From the IMG/VR virus record IMGVR_UViG_3300008267_012114, positions 1 through 23,480 of that record: a stretch of DNA of 23,480 bases; one strand, 5' to 3'. Below are positions 7,625 to 16,436 of this stretch, one piece after another. Numbering within the stretch: the first letter of the stretch is position 1; each line of letters begins with the position of its first letter. The stretch comes from a virus. Made by a program: the position numbers and the translations under genes. Below the pieces are notes generated by a model. The model did not search any database, was not told the DNA's origin, and was given only the letters and a program-made list of their open reading frames with translations.

Positions 7625-8415
7625 AAATCGGAGCAGCCATTATCGCATGCGATAGAACAGAATATACTAATAAATGTATAGATAGTTTACTTCTTAATAA
7701 AAGAGACCTGAATGAAATTATTGTAATAAATGACGGTAAGCCTTGGTCTAATAATAAAGAAATTGAAATTATTAATAATACACCTCCCTACCGTACAGTG
7801 GGGGTGGCTAAGAATAACGCAATAAAAGAATTAATTAAAAGAGGTTGTGACCAGTTATTTTTAATTGAAAACGATATAATTATTAAAAGCCCAGAGGTAT
7901 TTAAAACATACATTGAAGCAAGACAGATTACCGGTATAACTCATTTAAATTTCGGTTATCATGGTCCTGCTAATAGAACTCAAGACTATAAATTACCTAA
8001 AGCAAGGTATATAGTGGAGTACCCAAAAAATATTAAAATAGCACTAAATATGCATTCAGTTGGTGCATTTTCTTATTTTGATAAGCGTTACATTGAAGAA
8101 GTAGGGGTGCACGACACATACTTTAAAAATGCCTGGGAGCATGTTGAACTCTGCCAGCGAGGCGTTAAAAAAGGGCTTATACCCGCGTTTTGGTGGTTTC
8201 CAGACGTAGAGGGTAGTAATGAATTGCTAGAAGAGATTCCTGGGTCTATTCAAAATAGTTCTATAACACATACTCAGGAATGGACTGATAATATGAAGAA
8301 AGGCGCTGAATATTACCAAAAACTGCACGGGTGGATACCTATTCATTCACCAGATATGCCTTTGCAGCTAGTACTAGATAACCTCAAGGTAATTTATAAA
8401 AAATATAAACTATGA
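7621..8415 (+). CDS. Glycosyltransferase family 2-like (GT-A fold)
   Basis: A 264-residue putative inverting glycosyltransferase. It opens with the GT-A nucleotide-binding strand MKIGAAIIACDR and an INDGK motif (36-40), then GVAKNNAIKE (61-70), the usual GT2 N/A-rich helix, and an FLIENDIII strand (80-88) in which END stands where the metal-binding DxD is normally found. Later elements include HSVGAFSYFDKRYIEEVG and AWEHVELCQRG, matching the acceptor-side (E/D)xxxxxR region of GT2 enzymes. No membrane segment is seen, so it is probably soluble and acts in the infected cell. Donor and acceptor cannot be predicted. It overlaps gene 47 and the next gene by ATGA. Confidence 0.78.
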   Translation: MKIGAAIIACDRTEYTNKCIDSLLLNKRDLNEIIVINDGKPWSNNKEIEIINNTPPYRTVGVAKNNAIKELIKRGCDQLFLIENDIIIKSPEVFKTYIEARQITGITHLNFGYHGPANRTQDYKLPKARYIVEYPKNIKIALNMHSVGAFSYFDKRYIEEVGVHDTYFKNAWEHVELCQRGVKKGLIPAFWWFPDVEGSNELLEEIPGSIQNSSITHTQEWTDNMKKGAEYYQKLHGWIPIHSPDMPLQLVLDNLKVIYKKYKL

Positions 8416-9218
8416 TAACTTTTTCTCGTTTAGGACGCTACGGTAACCTAGGCAATTCTATGTTTCAATTAGCAGCAACCTTAGGTATAGCTGCTAAATT
8501 AAATTATTCCGTAAAATTTCCACGGAACCCTACGTACTTTGATACTAACTATAATTGTAATAATATTTCTTTATTTGATGGTTTTGAAATAGATAACCCA
8601 GTGTTAGTAAACGAGGACTACGCAGCAATAAAAAACCATTACACTGAACCGCATTTTCATTACGACCCTAATGCTTTTAATATATCAGATAATACCGATA
8701 TTGCTGGTTACTTTCAAAGCGAAAAGTATTTTAGTCATGCAAGAGACATAGTTACAAAAGCTTTTACTTTTAAAAAAGAGTATATTGAAAAAGGTAATTC
8801 ATTATTTAGCAAATACTCTATCTCGCCACATGAAACTACTTCTTTGCACGTCAGAAGAGGAGATTATGTAGTTAAACAGGTATACCACCCTCTTCAAGAA
8901 AATGCCTACTATGAAGCAGCGTTTAAAAAAGCAAAGCTTAAAAATGTATTGGTTTTTTCAGATGATATAGAGTGGTGTAAACAAAACATAGTAGGTAATA
9001 ATATATTCTATAGTGATACTAATAACTCTTTTGCCGATATGTATGCTATGTCTTTATGTAAGAATAATATTATTGTTAATAGTACTTTTGGCTGGTGGGG
9101 AGCGTGGTTAAATAGCCATACAGACAAAGTAGTGGTTGCACCAAGTAAATGGTTTGGACCGGCTTACAGTAATGTTGTTACTACAGATATAATACCCTCT
9201 CAATGGACAATAATATGA
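8412..9218 (+). CDS. GT11 alpha-1,2-fucosyltransferase-like glycosyltransferase
   Basis: GT11 enzymes transfer L-fucose, or in some O-antigen clusters colitose, from the GDP-sugar. This 268-residue protein carries the family motifs in order: GRYGNLGNSMFQLA (8-21), IAGYFQSEKYF (97-107), the HVRRGDY signature (146-152, GDP-binding), VFSDDIEWCKQN (181-192), and NSTFGWWGAWLN (223-234). Length is typical of bacterial GT11 (about 270-300). With the GDP-fucose-synthase-like enzyme and the GT10-like protein in the same operon, GDP-fucose or GDP-colitose as donor is a strong inference. No signal peptide or membrane segment is visible. Confidence 0.9.
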   Translation: MITFSRLGRYGNLGNSMFQLAATLGIAAKLNYSVKFPRNPTYFDTNYNCNNISLFDGFEIDNPVLVNEDYAAIKNHYTEPHFHYDPNAFNISDNTDIAGYFQSEKYFSHARDIVTKAFTFKKEYIEKGNSLFSKYSISPHETTSLHVRRGDYVVKQVYHPLQENAYYEAAFKKAKLKNVLVFSDDIEWCKQNIVGNNIFYSDTNNSFADMYAMSLCKNNIIVNSTFGWWGAWLNSHTDKVVVAPSKWFGPAYSNVVTTDIIPSQWTII

Positions 9219-10024
9219 TAAAAATTTCGTTAAAAGACCGCTCTTTCAGTCATTGCATTTTTAGTAATAATCCCTTACCGCCTACGTCTTTTGCAAAATA
9301 CATAGAGTGGGACAGAGAAACTATAAACAATAATACTGTTTATACAGATCTTTGTATCAATGAGGCGCCAAACGGGGCAACAGTATGGCTAATAGAGCCT
9401 AGAGAATTAATTGCAGGTATATATGAGTTTGTAGAAAAAAACGCAGCAAAATATAAAAGCATCTGGACCCACGATAAAGACATTTTAAATAAATTTAGTA
9501 ATGCAGTGTTCGTACCCCTCGGGGGGTGCTGGATAAAAGAAGAAGATAGAAAAATCTACGAAAAAACAAAAAACTTTTCTATAATAGCTTCTTCTAAACA
9601 GCATCTACCTGGACATAGATTAAGACACGAACTTATAAAAGCAGCAGAAAATCATATAGATGTTTACGGAAACGGGTATACCTATATACCCTACAAATTA
9701 GACGGTTTGAAAGATTATAGGTACCACTTTACTATAGAAAATACTAAGAGAGATTTTTGGTTTACAGAAAAACTTATCGATTGTTTACAGACCGGTACAA
9801 TGCCTATATATTGGGGATGCCCTTCCATAAGTAAATATTTCAATTTAGAAGGCTTTATTATCTTTAATGAACTTTCTGAACTCAAAGAAAAACTTAAGCT
9901 TTGTACACCCCAATACTATGAAAGTAAGAAAGATGCTATAAAAGAAAACTTTGAACTCTCTAAAAAATTTATTTTAGCAGAAGACTGGTTATACGAAAAT
10001 GATATTTATATCACACAGAGGTAA
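9215..10024 (+). CDS. GT10-like (alpha-1,3/4-fucosyltransferase superfamily) glycosyltransferase
   Basis: The C-terminal half holds the GT10 donor-binding signature: YHFTIENTKRDFWFTEKL (170-187, with the ENxxxxx(Y/F)xTEK pattern) followed by GTMPIYWG (194-201). In GT10 the Glu-Asn and Lys residues bind GDP-fucose. The N-terminal half (1-120) is divergent but contains ATVWLIEPRELI and IWTHDKDIL, compatible with a GT-B acceptor domain. I place the start at 9215 because it gives the ATGA overlap with the previous stop (9216-9218); an ATG four codons earlier also exists. Together with the upstream GT11 gene, it suggests two successive deoxysugar additions. Confidence 0.78.
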   Translation: MIKISLKDRSFSHCIFSNNPLPPTSFAKYIEWDRETINNNTVYTDLCINEAPNGATVWLIEPRELIAGIYEFVEKNAAKYKSIWTHDKDILNKFSNAVFVPLGGCWIKEEDRKIYEKTKNFSIIASSKQHLPGHRLRHELIKAAENHIDVYGNGYTYIPYKLDGLKDYRYHFTIENTKRDFWFTEKLIDCLQTGTMPIYWGCPSISKYFNLEGFIIFNELSELKEKLKLCTPQYYESKKDAIKENFELSKKFILAEDWLYENDIYITQR

Positions 10025-12788: not shown

Positions 12789-13095
12789 TATAAAAAATTT
12801 CACCAATGGATGGTTTATAGGAGATTTTGCTCCGGCGGTTTTTAAAAACTGTTTTTTTGAAGTAGCGCATCATAAGCATAAAAAGGGCTACATTGGGCAG
12901 TTACACTTTCACAAAATAGCTACAGAAGTTACCTATATAGTTAAAGGCAAACTTATAGCAGACGGTAAGACCTTATCAGATGGTGATATGTTTGTATATA
13001 GTCCAAAAGAAATCTCTAATGTACAGTTTTTAGAAGATACCGACCTTATCGTAATTAAATGGCCCTCAGTACCTTCTGACAAATACAATGTATAA
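12775..13095 (+). CDS. Cupin-domain protein
   Basis: A 106-residue single-domain cupin. Motif 1 is readable as GQLHFHKIATEVTYIVKG (41-58: H44, H46, E51, G58), the G(x)nHxH...E...G metal-binding pattern, followed by LSDGDMFVYSPKEI (67-80), the turn into motif 2, though the second motif's His is not evident. It overlaps the fusion gene by 14 bp and the methyltransferase gene by 8 bp. Small cupins in nucleotide-sugar clusters can be epimerases or isomerases, or sense a ligand; which applies here cannot be decided. The C-terminus (WPSVPSDKYNV) matches no characterised motif I know. Confidence 0.75.
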   Translation: MDVYNIKNFTNGWFIGDFAPAVFKNCFFEVAHHKHKKGYIGQLHFHKIATEVTYIVKGKLIADGKTLSDGDMFVYSPKEISNVQFLEDTDLIVIKWPSVPSDKYNV

Positions 13096-13741
13096 TAACG
13101 ATTATAGTAGATATGTCACTTGGGTTGAAACAACTTTGAAAGGTATTAAAGCATACCCCCAACTTTCTAATGGTCTCGGTCAGTACGATTCTCCTATTCA
13201 AATTTGCGAAAAATTTATTAATATTATTAAAGATGTAACAGGTAACAGGCAATTTTCAGACGCTAACAAAAAAACCATAGTAAAATTACTTAAAAATAAC
13301 CCACAAATAAAATGTATTGTAGAAATTGGTACAGCTAGTTCTTATACAGATAGTTCTACTCAAACGTTTATACAATATAAATCCCCTGATACGCTTTTTA
13401 TTACTATAGATATTGATAATAAATCTGCAGCACTAGGAAGTAACTCTTTAAGGGAAAAAATATTAGTATTACAAAGCGACTCAGTAAATGTCGACCTTAA
13501 GAAGCATTTTACCAATGCTAGTATAGATTTACTTTTTATAGACGGGGATCACAGTGTAGATAGAGTTTTTAAGGAGTACGAATTTTATTTACCCCTTATG
13601 AGTAAAAATGGAATAATTGTGTTGCACGATACCACGTTGCACCCGGGTCCATATTTGTTTATGGAAGCAGTAGATGAAAATGTTTACAAAAAAGAAAAAC
13701 TACATCTAAACGATTACGGATTGGGTATTATTTATTTATAA
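13088..13741 (+). CDS. Class I SAM-dependent methyltransferase (Methyltransf_24/CmcI-like)
   Basis: A 217-residue protein with the Rossmann-type methyltransferase layout: CIVEIGTASSYTDSS (76-90, motif I glycine loop, although E-I-G-T lacks the full GxGxG), LFITIDIDN (103-111, motif II acidic residue D108 or D110), VLQSDSV (127-133), LLFIDGDHSVD (148-158, motif IV) and IIVLHDTTLHPGP (176-188). IDGDHS followed by hDxxxH is typical of the CmcI/Methyltransf_24 group, which often methylates sugars in polysaccharide and antibiotic clusters; metal-assisted O-methylation using D152/H155 is possible. In this operon it most likely modifies the glycan product. Confidence 0.83.
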   Translation: MYNNDYSRYVTWVETTLKGIKAYPQLSNGLGQYDSPIQICEKFINIIKDVTGNRQFSDANKKTIVKLLKNNPQIKCIVEIGTASSYTDSSTQTFIQYKSPDTLFITIDIDNKSAALGSNSLREKILVLQSDSVNVDLKKHFTNASIDLLFIDGDHSVDRVFKEYEFYLPLMSKNGIIVLHDTTLHPGPYLFMEAVDENVYKKEKLHLNDYGLGIIYL

Positions 13742-14397
13742 TGAAAAAAGCTATTTCATTTTCAGGTCAGTGTCGTTTTGTAAAAGAGGGTATTAAATCT
13801 CTTAAACGTAATTTACACGATTTTGAAAATTATGATATCTTTATACATGCCTGGGACGGTCCCTTAGCTAAAGATTGTGAAATTTATAAGCCTAAAAAAT
13901 TAAAAATTGAACCTCAGAAAAACGTAATACCTAATATTGTAAAAGAATATACCCCGGCTCATTTCGTGCATTTTAGTATGTTTTATACTATGAAAGAAAG
14001 CTTAGACCTAAAAAGCGAGTATGAAAAGGAACACGGTTTTAAGTATGATTTAGTTATAAGAACTCGTTTTGATATAAGCCTAGAAACATATATTTCCCCT
14101 GAACATTATAATTTAAGGGCTGGGGTATACTCACCAGATGTTTGTGTAAACCCAGCAGTTATATCAGATTGGTTTAATTTTTCTGATTCTAAAACAATTG
14201 ATTTATATAAAAATATCTACGGCAATATAGTTAACTACCATAAACAAGGGGTTATGATAACCTCAGGGGAAGAAATAATAACTCATATGTTAAAAACCGA
14301 AAATATTTCTATAAATAAAATATTTTGCGCCCTCTACCTCTTAAGAGATCGAGGTATACACTCTCAACTTTCTACGTACTGGAAATATGCAAACTAA
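13741..14397 (+). CDS. Putative GT-A-like polysaccharide biosynthesis protein (WavE-like)
   Basis: This 218-residue protein begins ISFSGQCRFVKEGIKSLKRNL (5-25), has YDIFIHAWDG (31-40) and then YDLVIRTRFDI (102-112). The pattern of SGQ-R, DxFxHxW and R(T/A)RFD is known from lipopolysaccharide-associated proteins such as the WavE-type family, where RxRxD may replace the DxD of a GT-A glycosyltransferase. No metal site or catalytic base can be assigned with certainty, and there is no membrane segment. Its position among glycan genes supports a transferase role. The start overlaps the preceding stop by one base (TAATG). Confidence 0.6.
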   Translation: MKKAISFSGQCRFVKEGIKSLKRNLHDFENYDIFIHAWDGPLAKDCEIYKPKKLKIEPQKNVIPNIVKEYTPAHFVHFSMFYTMKESLDLKSEYEKEHGFKYDLVIRTRFDISLETYISPEHYNLRAGVYSPDVCVNPAVISDWFNFSDSKTIDLYKNIYGNIVNYHKQGVMITSGEEIITHMLKTENISINKIFCALYLLRDRGIHSQLSTYWKYAN

Positions 14398-15319
14398 AAT
14401 TTTAGTAACTGGGGGTACTGGAATGGTTGGCCGACATTTAAAGGATCTAGGTCTGCAAGCAATATATGCAAGTAGTAAGATGTGTGATTTAACTGATTCG
14501 AGTCAAGTAAAAGATTTTTTTGAAGCTACAAGGCCTAATATAGTTGTACATTTAGCTGCTAAAGTCGGGGGTATAATGGATAATATTAAAAACCCGGTTG
14601 GTTTTTTTGAAGATAATGTCCTTATCAATACTAACGTGGTAAAATATGCTAAACAATACGGCTGCACCCGGTTTATAGGTATATTAAGTACTTGTATATA
14701 CCCTGATAAGCTTGATGATAGTCTTTACCCCCTTAAAGAGGAGACTCTACATATCGGCCCCCCAACCCAGACTAATTTTTCTTACGGATACGCAAAACGA
14801 TGTTTGGCAGTACAGCTAGAATGTTACAGAAAGCAGCATTTATCGTTTTATAGTAGTATTATACCGTGTAATTTATATTCTGAATATGATCACTTCGAAG
14901 GAGATAAATCCCATTTTGTAACAAGTTTAATTCGTAAAATTTATGAAGCAAAAACAATAAATGCTCCCTCTATACAGCTATTTGGCACAGGAACCCCGTT
15001 GAGACAATTTATGTATGCTGAAGATTTAGCTAGAGCGATTATTGATTATATATATAAAGGAATATATGCAGACTTAAATGTAGCTACAGACGAAGTATAC
15101 ACGATTAAGCAAATAGCGGAAATAGCTCTAGACGCTTGCGATGCTAAGCATTTAACTATAAATTGGGATATTAGCAAGCCTGATGGTCAGTACAGAAAAG
15201 ACGTATCTGATGCATTATTTAAAAAACATTTACCAGGCTTTAAATATACCACCTTAAAAGATGGCATAAAAAAGACTTACGATAATTATTCACATGGCCT
15301 GGCTATTAAACGAATCTAA
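14387..15319 (+). CDS. fcl: GDP-L-fucose synthase-like epimerase/reductase (Fcl/WcaG; or ColC)
   Basis: Fcl turns GDP-4-keto-6-deoxymannose into GDP-L-fucose through 3,5-epimerisation and NADPH reduction. The 310-residue SDR protein has TGGTGMVGRHL (8-18, NADP loop), HLAAKVGGIMDN (55-66), LSTCIYPD (100-107, S101 and C103), YGYAK (133-137, catalytic Tyr133 and Lys137), IIPCNLYSEYDHF (158-170) and SH (175-176, His176). Cys103 and His176 are the epimerase acid/base pair of WcaG. Length matches the family (about 310-320). The adjacent ColD-like gene means this could equally be the related GDP-colitose synthase ColC. No GDP-mannose 4,6-dehydratase lies in the window, so the substrate must come from the host or elsewhere in the genome. 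Confidence 0.87.
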   Translation: MQTKILVTGGTGMVGRHLKDLGLQAIYASSKMCDLTDSSQVKDFFEATRPNIVVHLAAKVGGIMDNIKNPVGFFEDNVLINTNVVKYAKQYGCTRFIGILSTCIYPDKLDDSLYPLKEETLHIGPPTQTNFSYGYAKRCLAVQLECYRKQHLSFYSSIIPCNLYSEYDHFEGDKSHFVTSLIRKIYEAKTINAPSIQLFGTGTPLRQFMYAEDLARAIIDYIYKGIYADLNVATDEVYTIKQIAEIALDACDAKHLTINWDISKPDGQYRKDVSDALFKKHLPGFKYTTLKDGIKKTYDNYSHGLAIKRI

Positions 15320-16436
15320 TTTTACCTGGAAAGACCGCTTAAAAATTTGTTCTTTTTTTCTTAATAAAGAAAAATTTTGGACAATGACAGATGAGGTTGC
15401 TAAGTTCGAAGAGAAGATGGCTCAGTATACTGGTACGAAGTATGCTGTATTCGTTTCAAGCGGGTCAACGGCAAATACATTACTTGCCATGTATCTTAAA
15501 GATCAGTTAAAAGATTCGGTAAAAAACACTATAGTATTTCCGTCTACTACTTGGATAACATCAGTATCTCCATTTTTACGGGAAGGTTTTATACCGCAAT
15601 TTATAGATATTACTCTAGATTCTTTAAGTCTAGATTTAGATAAACTAGAAAATTATTTAAAAGATAATAAGCATAAAGTAGCCTGTGTTTTTATTACATC
15701 TTTACTGGGTTTTAGTCCCAATATAGATAGATTAAAATATCTTAGAAAAAAATACCAGGTAAAGATAATGTTAGATAATTGTGAAAGTACATTTACAAAA
15801 TGGAACGGTCGTAATATTTCTTCATACTTTACATCTACAACGAGTACATACTTTGGTCATTTGCTTCAAAGTGTAGAAGGTGGTTTTATTTTTACAAACA
15901 GTCAATATGAATACGAGTATTTTATTATGGCTCGTAATCACGGTATGACACGAGGATTAACAAATAATAAAGAATACTACTTAAACAAACAAGTAGACTC
16001 TCGTTTCGACTTCAACATATTGGGTAATAATTTTAGAAATACTAATATAAACGCTTTTATAGGGCAGTTAGATTTTGAAAGAATTTCTGAATATACCGAT
16101 AAAAGATGCTTATTATATGATATATTTCATAGTCTTTGTCAAGAGAGCTCAACAGTTACTACTTTTCCTAGAAAATTTGAAGATGTACCGTTTTGTCTGC
16201 CGTTCGTACTCCCTACCATACAAGATAGACATAGAGTGCAAGAGTACTGCCAAAAATTAAACATCGAAACAAGACCGATAGTTTCAGGCAATCTTTTGCG
16301 TCAAACTAGCCTTAAAAAATACGGAAACCCAGAAGAATTTGAAAATAGTGATATATTGCATCATAATGGTCTGTATGTAGGTTTACATAGTAGAGTAAAA
16401 GAAACTGATATTAAAAAACTAGCCAGACAATTATGA
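15294..16436 (+). CDS. ColD-like PLP-dependent sugar 3-dehydratase (DegT/DnrJ/EryC1 fold, Lys replaced by His)
   Basis: A 380-residue DegT-family protein. The aspartate that pairs with the PLP pyridine is seen in LDNCEST (160-166). At the position where aminotransferases have the PLP-binding Lys there is His189 (TYFGHLLQSVEGG, 185-197). ColD (GDP-4-keto-6-deoxymannose 3-dehydratase) and the E1 dehydratase RfbH share this Lys-to-His change, and ColD's His is known to make it a dehydratase rather than a transaminase. Further ColD-like segments are SSGSTANTLL (55-64), ARNHGMTRGL (213-222), RPIVSGN and HHNGLYVGLH. It overlaps the Fcl-like gene by 26 bp. Together the two enzymes could make GDP-colitose. 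Confidence 0.83.
   Translation: MAWLLNESNFTWKDRLKICSFFLNKEKFWTMTDEVAKFEEKMAQYTGTKYAVFVSSGSTANTLLAMYLKDQLKDSVKNTIVFPSTTWITSVSPFLREGFIPQFIDITLDSLSLDLDKLENYLKDNKHKVACVFITSLLGFSPNIDRLKYLRKKYQVKIMLDNCESTFTKWNGRNISSYFTSTTSTYFGHLLQSVEGGFIFTNSQYEYEYFIMARNHGMTRGLTNNKEYYLNKQVDSRFDFNILGNNFRNTNINAFIGQLDFERISEYTDKRCLLYDIFHSLCQESSTVTTFPRKFEDVPFCLPFVLPTIQDRHRVQEYCQKLNIETRPIVSGNLLRQTSLKKYGNPEEFENSDILHHNGLYVGLHSRVKETDIKKLARQL

Follow-up and report, generated by a model that had tools for sequence, protein, structure and literature searches.

A viral gene pair that probably encodes the two final enzymes of a GDP-colitose-type pathway

The gene pair

The IMG/VR record IMGVR_UViG_3300008267_012114 is a linear viral fragment of 23,480 bases; it was analysed whole and is called the window here. 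It carries adjoining genes for a short-chain dehydrogenase/reductase (SDR) and a protein of the DegT fold, whose products, judging from their sequences, probably carry out the two closing steps of a pathway of the GDP-colitose type, with most doubt falling on the exact sugar. We infer the substrate, the stereochemistry and the role of the pair. Both open reading frames were found intact at 14387-16436, where the original prediction, made from the DNA letters alone, had placed them, and they overlap by 26 bases:

14387..15319, plus strand: SDR of the Fcl/ColC family, 310 amino acids, proposed GDP-4-keto-3,6-dideoxy-mannose C5-epimerase/C4-reductase, ColC-like but of an independent lineage (Pfam, structure matches, catalytic residues, tree and approximately unbiased (AU) test)
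15294..16436, plus strand: predicted ColD-like sugar-nucleotide 3-dehydratase of the DegT fold, dependent on pyridoxamine 5'-phosphate (PMP), 380 amino acids (phmmer, ColD residues, model, tree)
15858..15860, plus strand: codon of His189, the catalytic-base position (Lys in aminotransferases), from the translation and the alignment with ColD His188

The loci and contigs compared with the window are numbered (L001, L011, L174 and so on). Contig L001 encodes proteins 90-93% identical to the window SDR and DegT protein, and the ratio of nonsynonymous to synonymous substitution rates (dN/dS) between the two is about 0.043 for the SDR, about 0.045 for the DegT protein and 0.053 for the DNA polymerase. 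Because these values are low and similar to that of the polymerase, both genes appear to be under strong purifying selection.

The dehydratase and the SDR

The DegT protein had been proposed to be a ColD-like dehydratase in which a histidine, His189, replaces the lysine that holds pyridoxal 5'-phosphate (PLP) in aminotransferases, and this proposal was borne out. The phmmer alignment pairs His189 with His188 of ColD, and the ColD-like segments already pointed out, ARNHGMTR and RPIVSGN, start at residues 213 and 327, respectively. A PLP lysine elsewhere in the alignment was looked for as well; the nearest lysines are K169 and K226, with none between them. Against the solved structures of the PDB the protein reached an E-value of 2e-38, scoring 135 bits with ColD, 77 with E1 and 61 with the best aminotransferase. 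All 12 ColD active-site positions compared are identical (G56, S57, W88, D159, E162, S183, H188, H215, R219, N248, R250 and R331). The double change S187N/H188K was reportedly introduced into ColD to obtain an aminotransferase.

An AlphaFold2 model of the DegT protein had a mean predicted local distance difference test score (pLDDT) of 92, and the top 12 rows of a Foldseek search with this model were all ColD. In VIA-align ColD led with a Z-score of 46.5, against 43.9 for the best non-ColD structure, PseC; this lead is modest, since the family shares one fold.

According to a review (PMC8987622), His replaces Lys in all three of E1, ColD and SpnQ; E1 and SpnQ hold a [2Fe-2S] cluster, whereas ColD has none and regenerates PMP with glutamate. 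The four-cysteine [2Fe-2S] motif of the E1 type (CxC...C) is absent from the window protein, whose cysteines lie at 19, 131, 163, 272, 282, 301 and 319; it is present in 19 of the 19 proteins that we labelled E1-type, a label itself defined by this motif or by PAHH. In a tree of DegT proteins (217 rows, reduced to 119 by dropping near-copies at 80% identity and then to 91) the window protein falls in a His-type, ColD-like branch of 70 rows, apart from E1 and from the lysine-type enzymes (Shimodaira-Hasegawa-like approximate likelihood ratio test, SH-aLRT, 99). Within that branch this quick tree puts it in a subgroup of viral proteins, separate from the clade of bacterial ColD. These comparisons identify the protein as a predicted ColD-like C3-dehydratase, for which C3-dehydration is well supported.

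Two other identities were considered for this protein and rejected: that of an aminotransferase, since no lysine lies near residue 189, and that of an E1/RfbH enzyme, since the Fe-S cysteines are absent and the tree branch is a different one.

The upstream gene encodes a well-supported, predicted Fcl/ColC-type epimerase/reductase (Pfam Epimerase, E 2.8e-49). Its nearest solved structure by sequence is human GDP-L-fucose synthase (E 2e-61), which was also the best Foldseek match of its model (pLDDT 95). Cys103, Tyr133, Lys137 and His176 occupy the positions of Cys109, Tyr136, Lys140 and His179 of E. coli Fcl, its catalytic residues; the epimerase Cys/His originally noticed in this protein is thus present. 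However, the cut-off of the Fcl equivalog model NF047922 is 500 bits, and the SDR reaches 200; on the same scale the ColC of Y. similis scores 315 bits and cyanophage SDRs score 420-462. Several otherwise constant Fcl residues are changed, for example Val180 to Phe, Trp202 to Phe and Glu210 to Gln.

The phylogeny of the SDR with Fcl and ColC, proposed at the outset as a check, placed it outside the ColC clade; by its score on NF047922 it is not a member of the curated Fcl family either. In a tree of 114 rows (283, reduced to 200 by dropping near-copies at 82% identity and then to 114) bacterial ColC formed a clade of its own, and the window SDR fell in a separate clade of 22 rows (SH-aLRT 100), whose neighbours are human GDP-fucose synthase and phage SDRs found mostly with gmd only. 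Under a better model applied to 46 rows, including 13 of the 22, the window clade and the ColC clade were each supported at 100, and in an AU test on these rows joining the two was rejected (log-likelihood 47 lower, p-AU 0.0005). Membership of the ColC clade was rejected on the strength of the tree and of this test. The coupling to an Fcl/ColC-like reductase originally proposed is supported, while the enzyme is not ColC proper. It looks like an independently evolved ColC on a mostly viral branch.

Recurrence of the pair and its surroundings

A neighbour of the C3-dehydratase type lies within 2.5 kb of the SDR in 20 of the 22 rows of the window clade, and these partners comprise 15 ColD-like proteins (the window's included), four E1-type proteins and one bacterial ColD. 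The sister clade has such a neighbour in 5 of 20 viral rows (Fisher p 2e-5 against the window clade, with related rows that are not independent). In row L178 an E1-type gene lies at another place in the record. A DegT search of whole records covered 22 records, with 20 controls among them, and gave a match in 4 of the controls, one of them of the His/E1 kind; these controls had been preselected for having no DegT neighbour and are hence an unfair comparison, so that the neighbour counts from the tree are the fairer one. That the SDR stays constant while the dehydratase is ColD-like or E1-type is as expected if the SDR acts on their shared 3-deoxy-4-keto product.

The E1/RfbH-type dehydratases beside window-type SDRs, which carry the Fe-S cysteine motif, are in L177 (6680), L182 (5931), L192 (4893) and L194 (4884), and three of these four loci are also near a gmd-like gene, outside the usual CDP-glucose pathway. 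Beside a window-type SDR, an E1-type enzyme can substitute for the ColD-like one.

The nearest relative with an adjoining gmd-like gene is L174, where SDR (62% identical to the window's), DegT (57%) and gmd stand in tandem. Its gmd-like protein shares 42% identity with E. coli Gmd and 26-28% with the divergent type of Gmd encoded at Campylobacter and Helicobacter ColD loci; across the gmd-like genes near window-type SDRs in L174, L176, L178 and L185 these figures are 39-58% and 25-32%, respectively. Of sixteen whole records with window-type SDRs, 12 have Gmd matches exceeding 300 bits, and another has a truncated Gmd at a contig end. In the bacterium Marinomonas arctica (L011) the order is ugd (named by us from its sequence), gmd, a window-like SDR, a second SDR and ColD, the last 74% identical to E. 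coli ColD. The window-like SDR of this genome scores 145 bits on the Fcl model, the next match scores 70, and no other strong Fcl/ColC-like SDR was found there.

An IMG/VR scan with an alignment from four phages found 144 viral relatives of the dehydratase, 80 of which were examined. The PLP position is His in all 80. Within the fetched flanks an Fcl/ColC-like SDR accompanies 66 of them, a gmd-like gene 68 and both together 62, and a match to glycosyltransferase family GT10 or GT11 lies near 47. For bacterial ColD loci (best 80 of 249) the flanks hold an Fcl/ColC-like SDR in 78 cases and gmd in 72. A search of 50,697 phage records gave 57 matches to the dehydratase, 45 from ACG-2014f and 4 from S-CAM7 (RefSeq copies counted), assigned to the ColD-like kind by identity to two sequences that were read. 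In NC_026927 gmd, SDR, DegT and a GT11-like gene are consecutive, with the annotations 'nucleotide-sugar epimerase', 'aminotransferase' and 'glycosyltransferase'; KU686213 (S-CAM7) lists GMD, 'GDP-L-fucose synthetase', 'putative CDP-4-keto-6-deoxy-D-glucose-3-dehydrase' and GT11. The PHROGs label for these DegT proteins (phrog_3139) is 'aminotransferase'. Phages with such gene pairs are thus already on record, annotated as 'aminotransferase' or 'GDP-L-fucose synthase', and the rarity originally supposed does not extend to phages: many viral contigs carry the pair, as do sequenced cyanophages. In the titles and abstracts searched we found no report of colitose made by a phage, a search that did not extend to subscription papers on ColD and ColC, and 'colitose' with 'phage' returned no cyanophage in titles or abstract openings.

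The locus L006 and Synechococcus phage S-H68 (L007) carry an E1/RfbH-type 3-dehydratase beside RfbB-like genes, which suggests that these marine phages may make other dideoxy sugars too.

Upstream of the pair the window encodes two glycosyltransferases:

8412..9218, plus strand: GT11 family glycosyltransferase, possibly a fucosyl- or colitosyltransferase (Pfam PF01531, E 1.4e-22; phrog_2644 glycosyltransferase)
9203..10024, plus strand: GT10-like glycosyltransferase (Pfam PF00852, E 6.1e-7, 29.7 bits against a cut-off of 23.9)

GT10 or GT11 matches occur in 15 of 23 loci of the window SDR clade, counted with the near-copies L184 and L187 added and the window left out. The GT11 proteins of the window and L001 (8412-9218 against L001 1759-2565) are only 37% identical, compared with 90-93% for SDR and DegT; this transferase looks swapped. 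A gene for a CmcI-like methyltransferase (13088-13741) is absent from the otherwise largely collinear L001. Between 10408 and 12788 a KdsC-like HAD phosphatase, a short PfkB-like kinase and a nucleotidyltransferase fused to an RpiB-like isomerase follow one another, a row retained in L001 and L175 and possibly a further nucleotide-sugar or polyol pathway. The window phage is T4-like. Between its DNA polymerase and the polymerases of T4-like phages, for instance the cyanomyoviruses, identity is about 30-32%, and SbcC-like and late-sigma-like genes are present as well.

The proposed pathway, its alternatives and known systems

We propose that a GDP-mannose 4,6-dehydratase, encoded outside the fragment or by the host, supplies GDP-4-keto-6-deoxy-D-mannose. 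The ColD-like enzyme would then remove the C3 hydroxyl on PMP, with His189 as the base; the enamine would be hydrolysed and PMP restored by glutamate. The SDR would invert C5 (Cys103/His176) and reduce C4 with NADPH (Tyr133/Lys137). From the resulting GDP-L-colitose, or a close stereoisomer of it, the sugar may be passed on by the GT11 and GT10-like enzymes to a glycan of the host or of the virion. As the simplest reading, GDP-L-colitose is the most likely product, so that of the two sugars originally offered, colitose or fucose, the 3,6-dideoxyhexose is retained and fucose alone is now the weaker alternative. GT10 and GT11 enzymes suggest an L-fuco-type donor, and their genes in the window and in 15 of the 23 clade loci therefore fit a sugar resembling L-fucose. 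A general C3/C5-epimerase and C4-reductases also accept the 3-deoxy substrate according to PMC10440746, an illustration of how recruitment of an Fcl-type enzyme could come about.

Several observations weigh against this pathway. No gmd was found in the window or in the records of L001 (21.7 kb), L175 (51 kb) and L187 (160 kb). In L186, however, gmd lies about 70 kb away from the SDR, and its absence from a fragment of 23 kb is therefore not evidence that the phage has none. Row L191 has no C3-dehydratase in a record of 20 kb, although this contig starts just before the SDR, and in Marinomonas arctica the second SDR, between the window-like SDR and ColD, could be the reductase. Sites shared by the window clade and ColC to the exclusion of Fcl number only 4, against 2 in a control pairing, and are given little weight here. 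Finally, the DegT group of the window, L001, L174 and L175 branches off on a long stem (1.26 changes per column), and at 14 mostly conserved positions it has residues that none of the 31 other aligned ColD-like proteins shows, some of them (T183, N245, N251, L364) adjoining active-site residues; its substrate may therefore have shifted, perhaps to a dideoxy sugar not yet described.

The alternative that survives best, though we consider it unlikely, is the same chemistry leading to another 3,6-dideoxy sugar, such as a GDP-3,6-dideoxy-heptose as in Campylobacter or a C4/C5 isomer of colitose. C. jejuni ColD homologues 62-67% identical to ColD make 3,6-dideoxy-heptoses, as PMC10440746 describes, and we count in its favour the divergent Gmd at the Campylobacter and Helicobacter ColD loci, the substitutions peculiar to the window's DegT group, and the PfkB-like kinase, KdsC-like phosphatase and nucleotidyltransferase-RpiB fusion. 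However, the gmd-like genes compared are nearer to E. coli Gmd than to this divergent type, which lowers the heptose reading, and the GT10 and GT11 genes that accompany the pair point to an L-fuco-type donor.

Less probable still, and in our view quite improbable, is that the SDR supplies the GT11 and GT10-like enzymes with ordinary GDP-L-fucose while the DegT protein serves a separate pathway. Human GDP-L-fucose synthase is indeed the SDR's best solved-structure match, and the closely related Fcl-type SDRs of cyanophages keep Fcl-like residues both with and without a ColD-like neighbour. The window SDR, however, belongs to a clade tied to C3-dehydratases, falls well short of the Fcl cut-off and lacks the otherwise constant Val180, Trp202 and Glu210, and no second Fcl-like SDR for a separate pathway was found in the window. 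A function of the DegT protein as a sugar aminotransferase, of the GDP-perosamine synthase kind for instance, as the PHROGs name might suggest, is very improbable, and so is its being an inactive relic, in view of the missing lysine, the His in all 80 of the relatives examined (of 144), the dN/dS of 0.045 and the double change S187N/H188K made in ColD toward an aminotransferase (title of PDB entry 3gr9).

Returning to the colitose-type pathway, we argue that the gene pair is functional, because of the purifying selection in the window lineage and the repeated retention of a 3-dehydratase beside the SDR; whether the sugar genes of large cyanophages work or are 'stuffer DNA' was given as not known in a 2010 comparison (PMC3037559). 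The SDR would not descend from ColC but represent a mainly viral branch on the side of the eukaryote-type GDP-fucose synthases, one that acquired the ColC role. More tentatively, phages may have their own, widespread system for 3,6-dideoxyhexoses, in which the synthase gained the ColC reaction independently, from a eukaryote-type fucose synthase, and is paired on the GDP-mannose route with either of two dehydratases of different cofactor needs, a ColD-like or an Fe-S, E1-like one. The independent, mainly viral SDR lineage, the spread of the pair in phages and the E1-type substitution go beyond the original prediction.

On bacterial surfaces 3,6-dideoxyhexoses are strong determinants both as antigens and as phage receptors, and a colitose-type sugar has so far been known mainly from bacterial coats. 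By making a 3,6-dideoxyhexose while it infects, a phage could hide the receptor from other phages or add the sugar to its own virion. The name 'aminotransferase' in PHROGs (phrog_3139) and in phage annotation can hide 3-dehydratases, and an SDR adjoining a 3-dehydratase should not be labelled a fucose synthase by default.

Among known systems, ColD (WbdK) of E. coli O55:H7 and Yersinia shares with the window protein the His for Lys, the active-site residues, the fold and the lack of Fe-S cysteines, and ColD loci likewise have an Fcl/ColC-type SDR next door. In contrast, the window DegT protein is 27-28% identical to ColD and on a separate viral branch, its catalytic His is flanked by Gly and Leu where ColD has Ser187 and His189, and its fragment lacks gmd. 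ColC, the GDP-L-colitose synthase, shares the SDR family, the catalytic Cys, Tyr, Lys and His and the place beside a 3-dehydratase, but the window SDR lies outside its clade (p-AU 0.0005). Fcl/TSTA3 offers, in the human enzyme, the closest solved fold and sequence, whereas the window SDR reaches 200 of the 500 bits of NF047922 and has its own clade tied to C3-dehydratases. E1/RfbH, the CDP-4-keto-6-deoxyglucose 3-dehydratase, shares the His for Lys and stands in for the ColD-like partner in four rows of the window SDR clade, but has the four-cysteine [2Fe-2S] motif that the window protein lacks. The cyanophage cassettes of ACG-2014f and S-CAM7 share gmd, SDR and a His-type DegT gene in succession, with GT11 downstream; their SDRs are on the bacterial Fcl side of the tree, and their DegT proteins are 33-34% identical to that of the window.

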